Below the pieces are notes generated by a model. The model worked only from the letters and a program-made list of their open reading frames with translations, was not told the origin of the DNA and did not search any database. The translations under genes and the position numbers were made by a program. A stretch of DNA of 31,489 nucleotides from a virus, in the IMG/VR virus record IMGVR_UViG_3300014050_000092, positions 1-31,489 of that record; one strand, written 5' to 3'. Position 1 is the first letter of the stretch. The number at the start of each line of letters is the position of its first letter. Shown in pieces: positions 6,673 through 31,489 of the stretch.

Positions 6673-7209
6673 TTACAGTAGGGCCAGAGCGATTAAGGCA
6701 CTGGAGGTTGAGCCAATATTGGTAATGTTTGTAGTTGAACTTACTGCTTGGTCTCCAAAGAGTCCGAGTCCTAGCAATGAATTCATCTCTAATAAACTAA
6801 TTCTGTTTGTGTCTGCTGTAGTTCCGTTTGCTCCAGCAATACCTTGTGGGCCAATAGCACCTGTAGGACCTGTTGCTCCTGCTGCACCATTTGCTCCCTT
6901 AATATTTCCTTGCAACACCCATCTGCTGCTGGATGAACTATACGCATAAAAATTTCCGTTTGCGGAGTTTAGGTATACATCTGCTTCTAAAGGACCAGAT
7001 ATTCCTGCGGATTCTGGTGCAACTGAATTAACAGTAATTTTACTTCCACGAGTACCAGCAACACCTGCTGCTCCCGTAGGACCAGTAATAGAAAGACCTT
7101 GAGGACCTGTAGGACCTGCGGGACCTGTAGGACCAGGTGCTCCTTGAGCGCCCGGACGTGAACCAGCAACAACTACCCATTCGGTACCTGTCCAGCGTTT
7201 TAATGACAT
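6673..7209 (-). CDS. Short collagen-like tail fibre protein
   Basis: 178 aa. A short head (MSLKRWTGTEWVVVAG) leads into Gly-X-Y triplets at about residues 20-55, a globular insert (residues 56-105, with the ADVYLNSANGNFYAYS motif), a second Gly-X-Y block (107-135), then a C-terminal helical segment (TNRISLLEMNSLLGLGLFG) that could trimerise the chain. The W-x-G-x-x-W head is the same kind used by the longer collagen-like proteins here. ATG is preceded by AGGAG at good spacing. Phage collagen-like proteins form trimeric triple-helical fibres on tails; the exact role is inferred. Confidence 0.85.
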   Translation of the reverse strand: MSLKRWTGTEWVVVAGSRPGAQGAPGPTGPAGPTGPQGLSITGPTGAAGVAGTRGSKITVNSVAPESAGISGPLEADVYLNSANGNFYAYSSSSSRWVLQGNIKGANGAAGATGPTGAIGPQGIAGANGTTADTNRISLLEMNSLLGLGLFGDQAVSSTTNITNIGSTSSALIALALL

Positions 7210-7285
7210 TGATTGCTCCTACACTCATCCACAAGTAGCATCTATATATTATCCTATTTTCTCTTTTACGAGTTCTTCATATACC

Positions 7286-8974
7286 TTAAAATACCCTGAC
7301 CCATGGGACAAGGTTGGCATATGTAGAACGTAGGGTTGTTGTAGTTAGAGAGTCTCCTCTAGGAATAGTTCCCGCAATTGTATTGCCTGGAACTCCTAGA
7401 CCGATAGTGTTTGCAAACTCTGGCTTTCCTAGGTCCATACCTGCCAAAAGCAAGTTTGTTGCCGATGTGTCTGTAGAAAAGACAACAGCATAGGCTTCAC
7501 CAGGGACTAAGGTGTAGGAAGAAGGGTAGCCACCAAAAGTACTAAATGAGCGGGTATACCAAGTCCCTGTCTGAGTCATCAAACTAGTGTCACTGTTAGT
7601 TCGTGCAACAAGAGTCATAGCACCAGTTTGTAAATTTATTGTGTAAAGAAGGTATCTAGCGTGTGTTGCACTAGGCAAATCTAAAAACCCTGAACCATTC
7701 ATGCAGAACATAGATATGCTGTTAATTGTCAAAATCTTTGGAGATAAAAGAATTGCTGCTGGGTTTGAACCAAAGTCAGGTCTAATATTGATAGTGCAAT
7801 TAGTTCCTAGATGAGCCCTTGAAATATTCTCAAGATGAGTTCCAAGAACAAAATCAACTTCATTAGTTGCTCCAGGAACGCCCTGCGGACCTGTAGGTCC
7901 AGGAACAAAACTTTCTCCCGCTGGACCTGTTGGCCCCTGAGCACCTGTAGGTCCTGTAGGTCCTGTAGGTCCTTCCAAAATTTCTTCTGCACCGCTAGTA
8001 TCAACCCAAAGAACAGTTACATCCTCGTCTGGAGGCGTTGGTTGAATAGCAAGATAGTCTAAATCAATATCATCTTCATCAATCCACAATTCACCTTCGT
8101 ACAAAGTTCCAGTTGGCGGTTCAGGGTCGGAGAAGATAAGTTCATCAAGAACATTTTCTTCAGATGCCCAGAACTGAAATTCTGCTGGGTCTGGTGCTGT
8201 AGTTCCAGAATAAATTGCAGCATTTGCACCAAGGTCATCAATGTCAAACCAAATATCACCAGATGTTGGTCCTGTAGGTGAGCCTAAACCAATATAAGTT
8301 TCTGTAGGAATACCAGTTCCATCAGTTGAAACATAATCCTTACCTTTTGGACCAATGTTTCCAGTAGGACCTGTTGGTCCAGTCGGACCAGTTGGACCAA
8401 CAATTTGACCTACGCTACTCCAAGATGTTCCATTCCATACATACATATCACCATCTGAATCAACAATGTATGCGTCATTACGAGCATTACCTGTAGATGG
8501 AAGATTTTGTGGTGTAGCAACACTTCCTCGAACATTGATAGATGTTCCTTGAGGACCAGTGCTACCTGTCGGACCAGTAGGACCTGGCACGGTTGATGTA
8601 GGACCAGTTGCACCCGTTGGACCAGTAGGACCAAGAATGTTTCCAGCATTAAGCCACTCTGCACCTACTACGTCCCACACATACAAGTCACCTTGTACAA
8701 GGTACGCCTCACCAATACTTCCAACAGGGTCAGCAGCAATTAACTCGGCTAGTGTGTCGTATGAGCCAAGAAGTGTAAGACCTGCACCTTGCGCTCCAGT
8801 TGCACCAGTCGGACCTGTAATACCCTGTAAACCCTGTGCACCAGTCGGTCCTGTAGGCCCGATAGGAGCAATTTTTACTACTTGCCAAACATTGCCGTTC
8901 CATCGCCAAGTATTTGTTCCAGAACTAAATTCTTGATTTAGGTACGGCGAATTAGGAAAATCAATCGCTGCCAT
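7286..8974 (-). CDS. Collagen-like modular tail fibre (562 aa)
   Basis: The N-terminal head (residues 1-35) has the pattern FPNSPYLNQEF...W-R-W-N-G-N-V-W, shared in type with the 640-aa fibre and common at the start of phage fibre proteins. Gly-Pro-Thr triplets follow, interrupted by a type A module (about 61-111, GSY...YLVQGDLYVWD...NAGNILGPTG), a type B module (about 141-193, GSVAT...NDAYIVDSDGDMYVWNG) and an acidic spacer (about 214-335) with W-[FV]-D-x-D motifs. A last collagen block precedes a roughly 190-residue C-terminal beta domain ending VPWVRVF, probably the receptor-binding tip. ATG has GAGGAG upstream. Likely a homotrimeric virion fibre. Confidence 0.88.
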   Translation of the reverse strand: MAAIDFPNSPYLNQEFSSGTNTWRWNGNVWQVVKIAPIGPTGPTGAQGLQGITGPTGATGAQGAGLTLLGSYDTLAELIAADPVGSIGEAYLVQGDLYVWDVVGAEWLNAGNILGPTGPTGATGPTSTVPGPTGPTGSTGPQGTSINVRGSVATPQNLPSTGNARNDAYIVDSDGDMYVWNGTSWSSVGQIVGPTGPTGPTGPTGNIGPKGKDYVSTDGTGIPTETYIGLGSPTGPTSGDIWFDIDDLGANAAIYSGTTAPDPAEFQFWASEENVLDELIFSDPEPPTGTLYEGELWIDEDDIDLDYLAIQPTPPDEDVTVLWVDTSGAEEILEGPTGPTGPTGAQGPTGPAGESFVPGPTGPQGVPGATNEVDFVLGTHLENISRAHLGTNCTINIRPDFGSNPAAILLSPKILTINSISMFCMNGSGFLDLPSATHARYLLYTINLQTGAMTLVARTNSDTSLMTQTGTWYTRSFSTFGGYPSSYTLVPGEAYAVVFSTDTSATNLLLAGMDLGKPEFANTIGLGVPGNTIAGTIPRGDSLTTTTLRSTYANLVPWVRVF

Positions 8975-9013
8975 TTACACTCTCCTCAAGAATAGATACT
9001 TCTAATTGTACGG

Positions 9014-9169
9014 TTAAGAATTAAGACCAAGATTTAGTTGATTTACATATGCGGATGCCCAGTTGATGGCTGAAGCCTCTGATTCCCATGGGCCAGAACT
9101 ATCAACAACTGCATCGTCTAATTTTACTTCACAAATAAGTTCTCTTGTTATTGTATAAGTATATGCCAT
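9014..9169 (-). CDS. 51-aa small conserved-looking protein (hypothetical)
   Basis: A short gene between the 562-aa fibre and the propeller. ATG at 9169 has AGGAG seven bases upstream, and the frame runs 51 codons to TAA. The protein begins MAYTYTITRELICEV and has SSGPWESEASAINWASAYV, a strand-strand-helix layout with a W-x-S-E-x-x-A pattern. I recall similar small proteins next to fibre genes of other environmental phages but cannot name a family. Probably a small tail accessory or assembly protein. Support: strong ribosome site, clean fit between neighbours, and codon use like its neighbours. Confidence 0.72.
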   Translation of the reverse strand: MAYTYTITRELICEVKLDDAVVDSSGPWESEASAINWASAYVNQLNLGLNS

Positions 9170-9178
9170 TTGATTCTC

Positions 9179-10090
9179 CTAGTTAGTAATGAGCGATGTG
9201 CCCAAAAGCCCTAATTGACCTGCTGCAACAAACTTAGGTATTCCTGTTGGAAATCCATATGCAACAGTGTTTACGTTTGAACCAGCAAAGTTTGACTCCA
9301 CTTGCACCCAGTTATTAGCATCTGTTGAATATATAGTTGTTCCGTTGACCCCACCAATAAAAAATGTTGCAGAGCCAAAATCAACGTCTCTTAAAGTGAG
9401 CGCTCCCACTGGTTGTGTCTTCTGAGTCCATGTTATTCCATCTGAAGAAATTGCAATTTTTCCATCTCCACCGCAAGCAACATAGTAATTTAAACCATAT
9501 GAAACAGAGTAAATAATGCTGGTTGTAAAACTACTTGCTTGTTGAGTCCAAGTTGTTCCATTTGATGATGTTGCTAACTTACCTGCATCTCCGACTGCAA
9601 CATATAAAGACCCTGAATATGTAAGACCATAGATAATAGAAGTACCAAAACTACTTGTCCGCTGAGTCCAAGTAATTCCATTTGAGGAAGTTGCTAATTT
9701 TCCAGAAACACCTACAGCAACAAAAAGAGAGCCAGAATAAATTACATTAAGAATTGTTGATGTACCAAAACTGCTGGTTCTTTGAGTCCAACTAATTCCA
9801 TCGGTAGAAGTTGCTAGTTTTCCAGAGGCACCAACTGCTACATAAACTCCAGCGCCATATGCAATATCCCAGATTGTGGTAGTTCCAAAACTACTTGTCC
9901 GCTGAGTCCAAGTAATTCCTTCAGGAGATGTTGCTAGTTTTCCTGAACTTCCCACTGCAACAAACTGACCATTTAAAAACTCTACTGATGAAATTTCAGT
10001 AGTACCAAAACTGCTTGTTTGAAGAGTATAAGAAGAAGGGGCATTTAGTCGAATACGAGATGACCAAATCCCATGAAGGGCTTTAAGCAT
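9179..10090 (-). CDS. Seven-bladed beta-propeller fibre protein
   Basis: 303 aa made almost wholly of seven repeats of about 40 residues after a roughly 22-residue leader. The consensus of repeats 1-4 is TSSFGT-x-x-I-x-x-V-x-Y...FVAVG-x-SGKLATS-x-[DEN]-GITWT-Q. Repeats 5-7 are more diverged. The S-x-[DN]-G-x-T-W signature resembles the Asp-box of sialidase-type propellers and photosystem stability factor-like repeats. Seven copies fit a closed seven-bladed propeller. No catalytic residues of sialidases are apparent, so a binding rather than enzymatic role is likelier. It sits among collagen-like fibres and is probably a virion adhesin tip. Start ATG at 10090 follows the 640-aa gene by 3 bases. 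Confidence 0.85.
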   Translation of the reverse strand: MLKALHGIWSSRIRLNAPSSYTLQTSSFGTTEISSVEFLNGQFVAVGSSGKLATSPEGITWTQRTSSFGTTTIWDIAYGAGVYVAVGASGKLATSTDGISWTQRTSSFGTSTILNVIYSGSLFVAVGVSGKLATSSNGITWTQRTSSFGTSIIYGLTYSGSLYVAVGDAGKLATSSNGTTWTQQASSFTTSIIYSVSYGLNYYVACGGDGKIAISSDGITWTQKTQPVGALTLRDVDFGSATFFIGGVNGTTIYSTDANNWVQVESNFAGSNVNTVAYGFPTGIPKFVAAGQLGLLGTSLITN

Positions 10091-10093
10091 TGA

Positions 10094-12016
<1,923 letters not shown>

Positions 12017-12019
12017 TTA

Positions 12020-15000
12020 TTACACCGCCCTCTCGTACATAAACTCAACAATAATTTCATCATTAGGATTAAATGTAAATGGGTCTGTATGGCTTGCAGG
12101 TAATCCTTCTGCATATACCGCAACCTGTGTATAAATAAATAATTCAATTCTTGTTCTATCATCATTATTAATAGCGACTGTTCCAAAAAAGTTTTTACCA
12201 GTACTAATACTTCTCATTGTTACAGTTCCTATTGGCTCAACATTTCTCATACCGCTAACTGCGGTAAATGGAAGTGTAATTCTATATGTTCCATTTCCAC
12301 GGTTGGTGGTTGAGCCAGCAATAATAAATAGATTTCCTTTAATAAGTCTGCCCATTTGAACATATTTACCAAAAATAGTTCCATTGCCTAAAGTTGGATT
12401 AATACTGCTAGCAGACCAAACAGGAACGTATGTATTCCAACTGCCATAATCAAAGGCACCTGTTGGTCCTGTAGAGCCAGTTAGTCCTGTAGGTCCAGTA
12501 ATTCCTTGTGCACCAGTCGGTCCAGTAATACCTCGTGGGCCAGTTGGTCCTTGGAAACGACCAGCGTTGTCCCACTGGACGTTAATAGCATCCCAGACGT
12601 ACAAGTCACCAGCAACAATATATGCTTCACCAGCAAACCCTGTAGGACGTTCTGCAATAAAGACTTCATATACTGCATAAGAACCAGAAATAAAGAGGCC
12701 CTGACCAGTATCTCCCTTAGTTCCTGTCGCACCAGTTGCACCTGTCGGACCCACAGAGCCAGTTGGTCCAGTGATACCTTGAATACCTTGTGCTCCTGTT
12801 GGTCCAGTAGCACCAACCTCGCCTTGCGCTCCTGTTGGTCCAGTAATTCCTTGGATGCCTTGTGGTCCAGTTGCACCTGTCGGACCCACAGAGCCAGTTG
12901 GTCCAGTGATACCTTGAATACCTTGAGCACCAGTAGGACCAGTAATTGAGAGTCCTTGTGGTCCAGTAATTCCTTGTGGTCCTGTTAATCCACGAATACC
13001 AGTTGGGCCTTGGATACCCTGAACACCTTGTGGTCCAGTTGGGCCAGTAATACCTTGACTTCCAGTTGGGCCAGTAATTCCTTGGATACCCTGAATACCT
13101 TGTGGTCCTGTAGGACCAGTAGAACCTACAGGTCCAGTAATACCTTGAATACCTTGTGCACCAGTAGCACCTGTTGCGCCAGTAGGACCAACCACACCTT
13201 GTGGGCCAGTTGCACCTTGCGGTCCTGTAATTGATAAGCCAGTAGCACCAGTTGCACCTTGAGCACCAGTAGGACCAACCACACCTTGTGGGCCAGTTGC
13301 ACCCATAGCGCCTGTAGGTCCAATTGGAGCAGCACCAACTTCTACCCAATATGAGTCGTAATAAACATAAATTTTCCCATTAAGAGTGTTAAACCATGAA
13401 TCACCATTTTGTGGATTTGCTGGTGGAGTTGCTGCTTCAAGTGCAAAACTTCCATAACGACCAGTTGCTCCAGTTGCACCAGTTGGTCCAACAATTTGTC
13501 CAGCATCAACCCAAGAGTCGCCATCCCAAATATAAATATTTCCATCAGCATCAACAATGTATGCATCATTAATATTATTTCCAGATGATGGAAGTAGCGC
13601 CGCGGTAGCAACACTTCCCTTAAGAACAATTGATGCTCCTGACTCACCCTGTGCACCAGTTGCACCTGTTGCACCAGTAGCACCCGTTAAACCAGTAGCA
13701 CCTGTTGGTCCCTGTGCACCAGTTGCACCTGTCGCACCTGTTGCACCAGTAGCACCCGTTAAACCAGTTAAGCCTGTTGCACCTGTTGGACCTGAAACGT
13801 TACCTACGTTTGTCCAAGTAGTTCCATCCCATACATAGAGATTTCCTTGAATAAGGTAAGAATCACCTTGAGTAATTGGGCCAGTAGGGTGGGCTGCAAT
13901 TAACTCTGCTTCTGTTTCATAAGAACCAGCAATAGCAAGACCTTGACCTTGTGCACCTGTAGGACCAGTAGGACCTGGCACAGTTGAGTCAGCACCTGAC
14001 GCACCTGTTGCACCAGTAGGACCCATCTCACCTTGTGCACCTGTTGGACCAACTTCACCCTGAATACCAGTAGCACCAGTAGGACCCATCTCACCTTGTG
14101 CACCTGTAGCACCAGTAGCACCGACAGCACCAGTTGGGCCAACTTCACCCTGAGCACCGACAGCACCAGTTGGGCCAACTTCACCCCGTGCACCAGTTGC
14201 ACCTGTTGCACCAGTAGCACCAGTAGCACCTGTTGCACCAACAGCACCAGTGGCACCCGTTGCACCAGTAACACCAGCATCACCAGTGCGAGAGAAAGAA
14301 ATTATAAGATTTTCGTCTGCTCTAAGAGCAGTTACTTTTCCACCAACATATGAAACTTGTAATTGATACCAACCACCAGTTTGGCTGGCCATAGATGTAA
14401 TTTGATAAACCGCATACTGCGTTGGGTCTGCTAAATAACTTAGTTTTATAAAACCTTTAATTGCTGATGTGCTACTTGTAAGAGTTTCTAAGTACGAAGC
14501 AACATTTCCACCAAAACTATCAACGTTGTTAATTGCCATGTAAGAGGCATTTACTTCATACCCATTTACTCTCAAATAACCAGAGCCAGGATTAGCAATA
14601 GCGTAGTTGCCACTAAATGTGTATCGAAAACTTACTCCACCAAAAGCACCAGTAGCACCAGTTGCTCCTGCTGAACCTGTTGCACCTGTTAAGCCAGTTG
14701 CACCTGTAGGGCCAACATTTCCTTGGATACCTTGAGCACCAGTAGCACCAGTAGCACCAGTTGCACCAGTATCACCTTTAGCACCAGTAGCACCAGTAGC
14801 ACCTGTTGCACCAACAGCACCTGTAGGGCCAACATTTCCTTGGATACCTTGTGCTCCAGTTGCACCTTGTGCACCAGTTGGACCGACTCCACCTTGGATA
14901 CCCTGAGCACCTGTTGCGCCAGTAGGACCAACTTCACCTTGAATACCTTGAATACCTTGTGCACCAGTTGCACCTGTCGCACCTGTTGCACCAGTAGCAC

Positions 15001-15943
15001 CAGTAGCACCGACAGCACCTGTAGGACCTTGAATATTTCCAACGCTATCCCATTCGGAATTTATTGCGTCCCATACATAAAGATTTCCAGCAACAATATA
15101 ACTATCACCAGGGCTACCTGTTGGATGTGCTGTTTGTAATGCAACTAATGTTGCATAAGAACCAAGAATTGTTACTGATGTACCAGCAGCACCTGTTGCA
15201 CCAGTTGGACCGAGGGCACCAGTTGGTCCTTGTACACCTGTTGGACCCTGAATACCTTGTGCACCAGTTGCACCAGTTGGTCCTTGTACACCTGTTGGAC
15301 CCTGAATACCTTGTGCACCAGTTGCACCAGTAGCACCAGTGTTTCCTTGAATACCTTGAGCACCAGTAGGACCAACCACACCTTGTGGTCCAGTAATTCC
15401 TTGTAAGCCTTGAGCACCAGTTGCACCTGTCGCACCTGTTGCACCAGTTGCACCTGTTAAACCTGTAGGACCAGTTGGTCCACCTGCCGGGCCTTGCGCT
15501 CCTGTTGGTCCTGTTGCACCTGTTAAACCTGTAGGACCTGTTGCACCTTGTGGACCTACTGAACCGCGAGGAACAGACACCGCAGCCTGAGACGCAACTG
15601 CTCCACTTACTGGGTCAACATTTGTAATATCTACATCGCTACCATCATTTACAGGTAGGTAGAAGTCAAAGTTATATGCTTTTGCTCCATAAACACGGAC
15701 GCGAACTGTGTAATACCAACCAACAGGAGATAGGGCTCTATTGTCAGTTGTAGGTAAATCAATACTAAATGAGCCAGTATTGTCTAACTGAAGTTGTATA
15801 GGCCCCGATAAAATTACTGCGTCATTAGCATCTGTAATCTTTCCAGAGGCAGAGAAAGTGACAGTTCCAGAAGCGGGAAGACCATTTACCTTAGTAAATT
15901 GGCCCTTGACCGTTCTAGTTGTCACATCTTCTGAATAACTCAT
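12020..15943 (-). CDS. Giant collagen-like modular tail fibre (1307 aa)
   Basis: The N-terminal domain (1-125) has the V-K-G-x-F-x-x-x-x-G-x-P-A-S-G-x-V-x-F layout, then [12 protein letters not shown] and [10 protein letters not shown]. This is a prealbumin- or fibronectin-like head seen in actinophage minor tail proteins and likely docks to the tail. Collagen triplets follow with inserts: type A near 255-305, a unique globular domain near 431-551, type A near 680-730, type B near 775-825, type C near 828-871 and type A near 1081-1131. The C-terminal cap (about 1164-1307) has [19 protein letters not shown], a frequent phage fibre ending. ATG has GGAG upstream. First gene of the fibre block; its inserts recur in the other two fibres. 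Confidence 0.9.
12732..12790. repeat. Direct repeat copy 1 (59 bp) in giant fibre gene
   Basis: These 59 bases recur identically at 12867-12925, 135 bases (15 Gly-X-Y triplets) away in the same frame. Such exact copies inside a collagen region point to recent unequal recombination or slippage. Confidence 0.85.
12867..12925. repeat. Direct repeat copy 2 (59 bp) in giant fibre gene
   Basis: Identical partner of 12732-12790. The exact match at third-codon positions, although neighbouring triplets vary freely, argues for recent duplication rather than selection on the protein alone. Confidence 0.85.
15216..15331. repeat. Tandem 54-bp-period repeat in giant fibre gene
   Basis: A 62-base sequence at 15216-15277 is repeated exactly at 15270-15331, overlapping by 8 bases with a period of 54 bases (six Gly-X-Y triplets). 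In-frame expansion or contraction here would change the length of the fibre shaft without breaking the gene. Confidence 0.85.
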
Positions 15944-27041: not shown

Positions 27042-27701
27042 TTACTTAGATGTACGCAAATAAACTTTTCTTACTGTTGCTGGATACCACTTTTCTCCGC
27101 CTAAAACAGTCGGTATGGCATCTCTGTTAAGGTTATCTGCAATTAATTTATACGATAAACCAAGATTTCTTTCATTTTCTATTCTTTTAAGAACTGCTTC
27201 ATTTACAAGAGGTAGTGGACCTAAATCAACTCCCCAAACTTTTCCATTGTTGCGTCTATCTTGGTGAACATCTTTTTGACGAAGCGAAATCATTCCGCGT
27301 TCCATCTCAGCCATGGCAGACATAATTGTTACAACAAATCTTCCTTGATAAGTTGCAGTGTCCAAACCTAAATCAAGAAGTGCTAGACGCCAGTTGTATT
27401 TATGTGAACGGTCAACAATGCTAAGAAAGTCACGAGTTGAACGAGCAAGTCGGTCAAGACGAGTGACAAAGAGGGCTTCTGCTTTACCAGCATCTAAATC
27501 ATCCAAGGCTTTTTTCAAGACAGGACGACCAGTAATGTTCTTTCCAGAACGACCCTCTTCACGAAGCATCTCTACTTCATACCCTTGCGACTCTGCTGCA
27601 TAGCGAAGTTGCTTTTCTTGGGCATCAAGGCTTACCCCGTCATCCACCTGCATCTGAGTGGAGACTCGGGCATAGCAGTAGGCAATTTTCTTTTCTGTCA
27701 C
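27042..27701 (-). CDS. Serine recombinase (resolvase/invertase type)
   Basis: 219 aa. The N-terminal catalytic domain (1-140) has YARVSTQMQ with the nucleophile Ser14, then EEGRSGKNITGRP, VTRLDRLARSTRDF and AEMERGMISLRQ, the conserved Arg- and Ser-bearing motifs of this family. The C-terminus has a short linker and a helix-turn-helix (LSYKLIADNLNRDAIPT...KWYPATVRKVYL). It lacks the long zinc and coiled-coil region of large integrases, so it is a resolvase/invertase-size enzyme of the type frequent in actinobacteria and their phages. GTG start overlaps the stop of the upstream membrane gene by four bases. It may integrate, resolve or invert DNA; the target site is unknown. Confidence 0.9.
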   Translation of the reverse strand: MTEKKIAYCYARVSTQMQVDDGVSLDAQEKQLRYAAESQGYEVEMLREEGRSGKNITGRPVLKKALDDLDAGKAEALFVTRLDRLARSTRDFLSIVDRSHKYNWRLALLDLGLDTATYQGRFVVTIMSAMAEMERGMISLRQKDVHQDRRNNGKVWGVDLGPLPLVNEAVLKRIENERNLGLSYKLIADNLNRDAIPTVLGGEKWYPATVRKVYLRTSK

Positions 27702-29391: not shown

Positions 29392-29441
29392 ATAGTAAGT
29401 CTATACAATGAAAAGTGCAACTTTTTGCGCTCTCTTTCCGT
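29392..29441 (-). promoter_or_regulatory. Promoter module copy 2
   Basis: On the minus strand TTGCAC (29420-29415), a 17-base spacer and TACTAT (29397-29392) precede the 128-aa gene. Six bases upstream of the -35 lies the box ACGGAAAGAGAGCGC (29441-29427). A pyrimidine-rich tract and an inverted repeat TTTCCG/CGGAAA lie further upstream, to about 29470. The gap 29360-29477 holds nothing else. Confidence 0.6.
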
Positions 29442-29477
29442 TATAAGAAGAAGCGGAAAAAAGGAGGGGAGGGGGGG

Positions 29478-29663
29478 TTAGGTGCGAGGTTTGGGAGGTT
29501 TGGGGGTGACCAGTTCCCTGACCATGTGGACGTTGTACATAATGTCGCCTGTGGCGTTGAGCAGGGTCAGCACTTCAGCAAAGGCTTTTTTGCGTGCCTT
29601 TTGACATCCAGTGCATGGGCATACCCAATCGCCGCGTTCTGGCGTCTGGTTTGGGTCAGCCAT
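29478..29663 (-). CDS. Small CPCTGC zinc-binding protein (hypothetical)
   Basis: 61 aa. Begins MADPNQTPERGDWVCPCTGC; three Cys within six residues probably bind metal. A helix follows (KARKKAFAEVLTLLN), and the tail is Pro/Lys-rich (TPKPPKPRT). The start ATG has GGAGAA upstream. I recall small actinophage proteins with the same W-V-C-P-C-T-G-C motif and unknown role. Its coding sequence is unusually C-rich near the 3' end (the plus strand reads as G runs), which shapes the G-rich flank of the promoter module. Confidence 0.72.
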   Translation of the reverse strand: MADPNQTPERGDWVCPCTGCQKARKKAFAEVLTLLNATGDIMYNVHMVRELVTPKPPKPRT

Positions 29664-30133: not shown

Positions 30134-30184
30134 ATCTTAGCACTTCTACAATAAAAAGTTGGTTTTTTCGCGCTCTTTTTCCGT
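30134..30184 (-). promoter_or_regulatory. Promoter module copy 3
   Basis: On the minus strand an extended -10 TGC-TAAGAT (30139-30134) lies 17 bases from a poor -35 (CCAACT, 30162-30157). Seven bases further is the box ACGGAAAAAGAGCGC (30184-30170). The weak -35 suggests the box helps recruit polymerase. The plus-strand gene at 30233 begins just to the right. Confidence 0.58.
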
Positions 30185-30220
30185 TATAAGGGGAAGAGGC
30201 AGAAAAGAAAAGGAGGGGTG

Positions 30221-30233
30221 TAGGATGGGGGGA
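30221..30233 (+). promoter_or_regulatory. -10 element for a leaderless proteasome-like gene
   Basis: TAGGAT at 30221-30226 ends seven bases before the ATG at 30233, so transcription would begin at or next to the start codon. There is no clear -35. A G run just before the ATG could also act as an unusual ribosome site. Confidence 0.35.
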
Positions 30234-30778
30234 TGACAACGGTAATTGGGATGCAGTTTGGGGATGGATGCTGGTTGGCATCTGACAGCCGAACAACTGG
30301 TGAGACAGGACGCCCCTACCACCACGACTGGGTTGAGAAAATAACGCAGCGTGGCGAATACCTAATTGCTGGCTCTGGAGATGCTGATGCTTGCGACATC
30401 ATTCAGCACGTTTGGCAGCCACCTGAGCCTCCTAAGAAAAATAGAAAAGATAAAGAGAATAACCTTTTCAACTTTATGGTGACAACAGTTTCGCCAAGTC
30501 TTCGCCAGTGTCTTGAAGATGGCGACTACGAGCAAGACAAAAATGATAAGGATGCTGGTTATCTTTTCCTTATTGCCCTTCGTGGAGTCATTTACGAAAT
30601 AGATAATTCAAATACTGTCTCGATGAGAGATGATGGCATTTATGGAATTGGCAGTGGCTCTAAGTATGCAATTGGTGCGCTATACGCTGGTGCGTCATAT
30701 ATAGATGCACTTGAGATTGCTGCAAAGAATGATATCTACACCGCAGCGCCGTTTAAGTATTACGAACAAGATAAGTAA
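30233..30778 (+). CDS. Proteasome beta-subunit-like Ntn hydrolase
   Basis: 181 aa. It begins MTTVIGMQFGDGCWLASDSR: after Met removal Thr becomes residue 1, with Asp at 17 (ASDSR) and Lys at 35 (VEKI), matching the Thr1-Asp17-Lys33 catalytic set of 20S proteasome beta and HslV subunits apart from a two-residue insertion. Later motifs fit too: LIAGSGDADACDI, IYGIGSGSKYAIGALYAG and DALEIAAKNDIYTAAP. There is no long propeptide, so Met excision alone would activate it, as in HslV. It probably assembles into rings and degrades peptides; host or phage targets are unknown. It stands alone on the plus strand among minus-strand genes and appears leaderless. Confidence 0.87.
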   Translation: MTTVIGMQFGDGCWLASDSRTTGETGRPYHHDWVEKITQRGEYLIAGSGDADACDIIQHVWQPPEPPKKNRKDKENNLFNFMVTTVSPSLRQCLEDGDYEQDKNDKDAGYLFLIALRGVIYEIDNSNTVSMRDDGIYGIGSGSKYAIGALYAGASYIDALEIAAKNDIYTAAPFKYYEQDK

Positions 30779-30821
30779 AGTTATACAATGACAGGTGCGT
30801 TTTTCTGCGCTCCCTTTCCGT
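30772..30821 (-). promoter_or_regulatory. Promoter module copy 4, facing into the proteasome-like gene
   Basis: The box ACGGAAAGGGAGCGC (30821-30807) lies six bases from a -35-like ACGCAC (30800-30795). The -10 position reads TACTTA (30777-30772). The CATTGTATA segment of the spacer is shared with copy 2. It points left into the 3' end of the plus-strand proteasome-like gene, so it would make an antisense RNA or is a relic. Confidence 0.45.
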
Positions 30822-30853
30822 TATAGGAGGCGGCGGAAGAAAAAAGGGGGAGA

Positions 30854-31087
30854 TTAGGGTGTGGGGTAGTTTTGGGTGTCGTCTGCAAGGAGACGTTCAA
30901 ATATGTCGTCAGGCATTTTGTGCCCGATTCTCTGGTGCGCTTTAAGATGGTCAATCATTTCTTGAGTTGACTCTGCTTTGTAGTAAGGCTCTGTGTCATC
31001 ACAAAAATAACACATGGCACAGATAACTCCGCCAGAAGAATGTTGGTAAACATTCACATCATCTTGAAACATCTTTGCATAGGTCAT
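30854..31087 (-). CDS. Small C2H2-like zinc protein (hypothetical)
   Basis: 77 aa. C-A-M-C-Y-F-C (about 23-29) followed by MIDHLKAHQRIGH gives enough Cys and His for a zinc finger. The pattern of a CxxC, then a helix with H-L-K-x-H, then GHKMPDD, recalls small actinophage proteins of unknown function. ATG at 31087 has no spaced ribosome site, but a -10 TATACT ends seven bases upstream, so it is likely leaderless. It ends inside a G-rich plus-strand stretch. Confidence 0.72.
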   Translation of the reverse strand: MTYAKMFQDDVNVYQHSSGGVICAMCYFCDDTEPYYKAESTQEMIDHLKAHQRIGHKMPDDIFERLLADDTQNYPTP

Positions 31088-31434: not shown

Positions 31435-31489
31435 GCGGTTGTAGCGCAGTTGGTAGCGCGAGACCTTGCCAAGGTCTAGGTCGCGGGTT
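31435..31489 (+). tRNA. tRNA-Gly (GCC), truncated by window end
   Basis: The 5' acceptor strand GCGGTTG is followed by a D arm closed by GCGC/GCGC and an anticodon stem AGACC/GGTCT with loop TTGCCAA (anticodon GCC, glycine). The T-arm strand GCGGG then begins, and TT ends the window. The T loop and 3' acceptor strand are outside. It could be phage-encoded, which would fit the Gly-rich fibres, or a host gene at a prophage boundary. Confidence 0.88.

Follow-up and report, generated by a model that had tools for sequence, protein, structure and literature searches.

A proteasome-family peptidase related to HslV and BPH in a probable phage of freshwater Actinobacteria

Results and discussion

The IMG/VR virus record IMGVR_UViG_3300014050_000092 carries, at positions 30233-30778 (+), a gene for a 181-aa protein that sequence profiles and a predicted fold assign to the proteasome family of Ntn hydrolases, on the side of HslV and BPH rather than that of bacterial PrcB. 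The protein is apparently an active peptidase, as predicted from its complete set of catalytic residues, and dN/dS values of 0.07-0.11 against close relatives in several lineages point to purifying selection. The window, which is the whole stretch of DNA analysed and also the entire record, is linear, comprises 31,489 bases and is probably a fragment; its content includes terminase, primase, exonuclease, resolvase and tail-fibre genes.

Peptidases of the proteasome family have been recognized in viruses before and are widely distributed there. A 2021 study described proteasome homologs in phages (PMC8665760), and a PHROG exists for the family. Such proteins have been catalogued in phages without a known function, and the family of the window protein is abundant in environmental viruses, with relatives encoded in at least 551 IMG/VR stretches. 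Two phages in culture, whose host 'Ca. Planktophila' is an abundant freshwater bacterium, have a homolog, which makes the function directly testable. The least expected observation is that two diverged subunits are paired in one actinophage genome, a combination for which no report was found among open-licence papers.

Family assignment and predicted fold

The window protein matches PHROG_1040 ('peptidase HslV family') along residues 1-180 with E=6.1e-29. Taken alone, it scores 20.3 bits with the Pfam Proteasome model (PF00227), just below the cut-off of 22.4 bits; its homolog in contig G006 scores 25.5 bits, above the cut-off, and 52 of 55 relatives match at E<=0.01. The best solved relatives of a profile made from the 55 sequences are BPH (5ovu, 9e-11) and HslV (3ty6, 2e-9). 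Among the same 55 members, the NCBIfam model for HslV matches 44, and that for 20S_bact_beta matches 12 weakly.

The AlphaFold2 model (pLDDT 92.4, pTM 0.88) has the Ntn order of strands and helices, with helices H1-H4 in a four-layer alpha-beta-beta-alpha arrangement. Foldseek and VIA-align rank BPH first (Z 18.5 over 158 residues, rmsd 2.2 A). Z scores to BPH, HslV and Anbu are 17-18.5, and proteasome beta subunits are close behind BPH (PrcB, Z 16.9). The first-pass annotation of this DNA had proposed a phage-encoded proteasome-like peptidase, and the PHROG_1040 match and the Ntn fold bear out that reading. It had also called for a structure prediction, holding that anything other than the Ntn four-layer sandwich would speak against it, and the predicted structure is that sandwich.

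Catalytic residues and the acidic loop

The ORF begins with MTTVIG, in which the Thr at ORF residue 2 (30236-30238, +) is the N-terminal nucleophile, Thr1 of the mature protein. This residue is invariant in 55 of 55 relatives, as are Asp17 of the catalytic triad (30284-30286, +; ORF residue 18), the Lys at mature position 35 that is equivalent to proteasome Lys33 (30338-30340, +; ORF residue 36), and the oxyanion-hole Gly that is equivalent to Gly47 (30377-30379, +; ORF residue 49). Mature Thr2 is likewise invariant in all 55. Because one of the two patterns used to search IMG/VR contained MTTI, these counts are biased at the N-terminus, though not at Asp17, Lys or Gly.

Farther along the protein, GSGSKYAIGAL (30650-30682, +; ORF residues 140-150) spans the loop of the Ser129 region and the start of helix H3. 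Its Gly140 and Gly142 are invariant, and Ser141 occurs in 49/55. A D-x-x-T motif at 30731-30742 (+) is the equivalent of proteasome Asp166/Ser169. Position 170 is Thr or Ser in every relative; the Asp at the D166 position is present in only 39 of 55, which counts against the mechanism favoured below. The segment from helix H2 to the next strand, which is the position of a pore loop, is the acidic loop DGDYEQDKNDKDAG (30518-30559, +); at this loop the relatives have a median of 36% Asp/Glu, versus 12% for the whole protein.

An in-frame TAG at 30221-30223 lies 12 nt before the ATG, and the ORF therefore has no propeptide. Thus, the 181-aa translation contains the Thr1, Asp17, Lys35 and GSGSKYAIGAL features that had been noticed initially, and lacks a propeptide as had been claimed. 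The loss of the Thr/Asp/Lys set in all relatives, which had been named as grounds for abandoning the idea, has not occurred.

Comparison with known systems

Members of PHROG_1040 include the 'protease' of Arthrobacter phage Hum25 and of Microbacterium phage Pumpernickel, and the 'ATP-dependent protease subunit' of DSL-LC01. These phage-borne proteins resemble the window protein in their full-length profile match, catalytic residues and similar length. However, identity to the annotated actinophage members is only 27-29%, and the window protein belongs to a separate, supported clade. The nearest homologs in isolated phages are those of LanE43AprE7 and LanE43AprF5 (OX376640, OX376641), with 42% identity over the full length, and there the gene directly follows a portal-like gene, unlike in the window. 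LanE43AprE7, a phage in culture, infects 'Ca. Planktophila' LanE-43, a freshwater actinobacterial host (PMC10202952).

BPH (PDB 5ovs, 5ovt, 5ovu) is the closest solved fold. It forms a double ring whose pore loop is elongated and acidic, and its Thr1 binds epoxomicin (PMC5777263). It agrees with the window protein in the acidic loop at the pore position and in having no propeptide, and for neither was an unfoldase found. Identity between the two is approximately 20-25%, and BPH is a bacterial gene product that forms a homo-tetradecamer. HslV differs in that the window protein has no NCBIfam HslV match and no HslU partner: a ClpX/HslU-type unfoldase (PF07724) was detected in none of 11 phage records, several of which, including the window's, are fragments. 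PrcB, the beta subunit of the bacterial 20S proteasome, has a propeptide and an alpha partner, whereas the window protein lacks a propeptide.

Cellular relatives occur on plasmids of Rhizobium and Streptomyces, and these are probably the AAH of Fuchs et al. 2021 (PMC8665760). The putative AAH sequences are close to the window protein by profile (hhalign 99.9%, E 1e-32), belong to group I and have no propeptide, but they form a clade separate from the window group with 100/98 support. The 2021 survey noted no actinobacteria-specific phage with AAH (PMC8665760), and actinophages with the sister group prove to be common. PPH (PMC8665760) is also phage-borne and of group I; however, it has approximately 140 residues and no helix H2, whereas the window protein is 181 residues long, with residues 76-96 forming a helix where H2 would be. 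Beyond Fuchs et al. 2021, nothing was found in the open-licence literature on proteasome-like proteins in actinophages or acI.

Host and genomic distribution

The near-identical phage G003 (127 kb) was used as the source of the wider genome of the window virus: its TerL is 97% identical to the window's terminase, and its peptidase is 90% identical. WhiB genes, which mark actinophages (PMC10202952), are present in nine of the 11 records searched. Because G003 has three of these genes, an actinobacterial host is supported for the window virus, in agreement with the host assumed in the first-pass annotation. Another part of that assumption, that actinobacterial hosts have a 20S proteasome, does not hold for all of them, as Corynebacterium glutamicum has no PF00227 match.

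The window protein matches 90 phage records, and annotated homologs are found in many isolated phages. Members of the family come from phages that infect E. coli, Vibrio, Moorella and Tenacibaculum, among others. A pattern-limited scan of 84,980 GTDB genomes yielded one relative, in a gammaproteobacterial MAG. Within approximately 3.5 kb of the gene at 83 loci, DnaB helicase, RusA-like resolvase with related small genes, primase and sigma-factor-like genes each occur at 31 of the loci, and WhiB at 27. In several large phages, the gene adjoins PhoH, ThyX, DHFR, ribonucleotide reductase or dCMP deaminase. A portal gene lies directly upstream in 13 of the 83 IMG/VR loci as well as in LanE43AprE7, and in phiM5 the peptidase gene sits between TerL and portal; no single conserved timing can therefore be claimed. 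No operon partner conserved across groups was found.

A second, diverged family member in close relatives

G003 encodes a second family member at 88280-88855 (-), a protein of 191 aa whose identity is 31% with the window protein and 45% with the DSL-LC01 protein. Both kinds of peptidase also occur in G005 and G006, and no contig longer than 50 kb other than these three bears a gene of the clade to which the window protein belongs. The second, diverged gene is located in relatives at L023 8280-8855 (-), L026 13041-13607 (+) and G006 78504-79064 (-). Its product has the same predicted fold with a longer H3-H4 region, and because it keeps Thr1/Asp17/Lys, it is not an inactive subunit of the alpha type. 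The two kinds fall into separate clades of a tree whose root is arbitrary in that no HslV or PrcB outgroup was included; the separation argues against a recent duplication and for an ancient divergence. The 125-kb contig G016 and DSL-LC01 have one match each only. Any second copy in the window virus would lie outside the fragment.

The presence of two diverged subunits per genome suggests a possible viral multi-subunit protease. That the window-type and second subunits of G003, G005 and G006 form one hetero-oligomeric viral proteasome, for example with two kinds of ring, is distinctly doubtful; if true, the two-subunit particle would give the virus a whole proteolytic machine of its own, not one borrowed from the host. 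A PF00004 ATPase of approximately 350 aa is found in several of the 11 records and is not adjacent to the peptidase. In several phages with the second subunit, an AAA ATPase of this length (in G003, 97192-98241, -) is 7-10 kb from the second-subunit gene.

Possible functions of the peptidase

The leading explanation, in which we have about even confidence, is that the protein, from a phage of freshwater Actinobacteria, belongs to the HslV/BPH side and works as an active threonine peptidase that is self-compartmentalising. Removal of Met, peptidase activity, ring assembly, use without an unfoldase and the identity of the substrates are steps that we infer. Host methionine aminopeptidase would take off the initial Met and free Thr1, which makes a propeptide unnecessary. 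Judging by the fold, the subunits would stack as a BPH-like homo-oligomeric double ring with the active sites inside. The acidic loop after H2 would line the pore and select unfolded or particular proteins, with no need for a dedicated ATP-driven unfoldase. The gene context suggests that the particle might remove particular proteins of the host, or perhaps of the phage, in the replication phase and thereby contribute to takeover of the cell; degradation of host proteins, an activity raised in the first-pass annotation, is possible. In close relatives, the second, diverged subunit may form a ring of its own or join the window-type ring.

No activity of purified BPH was seen on model substrates (PMC5777263), which counts against the leading explanation and would suit a specific processing enzyme or ligase that acts on one or a few targets, perhaps as a monomer or single ring. 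The proteasome-like family does include a monomeric ligase, connectase (PMC8665760), and the absence of a PF07724 unfoldase from the 11 records also fits such an enzyme. However, the two-helix insertion that connectase has between S3 and S4 is missing from the model, and H1-H4 are intact as in ring formers, so this alternative is somewhat improbable. A role in virion assembly, namely the trimming of head or portal proteins by a ring or a monomer as the capsid matures, is suggested by the portal and TerL-portal placements. We considered a head-maturation protease for the portal adjacency and ranked it low. G003 has a separate protein that matches head-maturation proteases (phrog_18402, 2.6e-55), the window, G003 and approximately 31 other loci have the peptidase gene outside the head module, and in phiM5 the neighbouring head genes, but not the peptidase, are noted in the particle; such a role is quite unlikely.

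None of the hosts E. coli, Vibrio, Moorella and Tenacibaculum is known to have a 20S proteasome, and phages of all four carry the same family. This bears on the earlier suggestion that the protein competes with, poisons or replaces host 20S subunits, that is, that a beta-like subunit mixes into PrcA/PrcB particles and blocks or reprograms them. The actinobacterial host, the fold similarity to PrcB and the lack of a propeptide would be in keeping with such interference. But the nearest solved relatives are HslV and BPH rather than PrcB, the NCBIfam counts favour HslV (44/55 versus 12/55 for 20S_bact_beta), and a pure blocker would not need a full catalytic set under strong selection. Interference with the host particle is therefore very improbable, and 20S mimicry was set aside as the main reading in view of the HslV/BPH relatedness and the phages whose hosts lack the 20S particle. 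Finally, the cassette-like position of the gene between the 86-nt repeats described below, and the absence of the ORF that precedes it in L001-L003, might indicate a decayed or neutral cargo gene with no role in infection. Given the low dN/dS over several lineages, the invariant catalytic residues and the hundreds of viral relatives, this is scarcely credible.

Start region, repeats and surroundings of the gene

The sequence TAGGAT (30221-30226, +), which conforms to TANNNT, precedes the ATG by six nucleotides and may serve a leaderless transcript as its -10 box. TANNNT with this spacer occurs at 11 of 134 ATG starts in the window and G003, versus 30 of 1971 control ATGs, and relatives with a lone gene have the same spacing (TATGCT-N6 in L004 and L029, TACACT-N6 in L036). 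On these grounds, the leaderless start that had been proposed for the peptidase is plausible. The starts in the window and G003 with TANNNT exactly 6 nt before the ATG suggest a set of leaderless phage transcripts. A sigma-70 promoter scan found five sites versus 3.5 expected and no consensus just upstream of the gene on either strand, so an antisense-facing promoter that had been suggested there was not confirmed. The lone orientation that had been remarked on applies to the window only; in L001-L003, the gene overlaps a 79-aa ORF by 4 nt. This upstream ORF is membrane-protein-like (phrog_2421), is precisely missing from the window and is absent in L004 and L005.

Three copies of an 86-nt intergenic repeat, 67-71% alike, flank the gene. 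Copy 1 is at 29404-29489 (+), copy 2 ends at the start codon (30147-30232, +), and copy 3 is just after the gene (30784-30869, +). Within those pieces of G003, G002 and G005 that were searched, the repeat is confined to the peptidase locus, and the gene content between copies varies among relatives. This arrangement suggests either that cassettes are exchanged or that the repeat is a regulatory element held in common.

Several other elements were observed. A serine recombinase/resolvase gene at 27042-27701 (-; PF00239, 5e-36) is 97-100% identical in L001-L003 and adjoins the variable region. A series of highly repetitive collagen-like tail-fibre genes at 6673-15943 (-) has segments common to each other and to relatives. 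In G003, a 2635-aa protein (L022 1454-9361, -) matches the anti-restriction family phrog_7245 and the exonuclease-like family phrog_192. A tRNA-like sequence at 31436-31489 is cut by the contig end; in L002 and L003, a homologous 104-aa gene is followed directly by tRNA-Gly(gcc) and then by tRNA-Gln.
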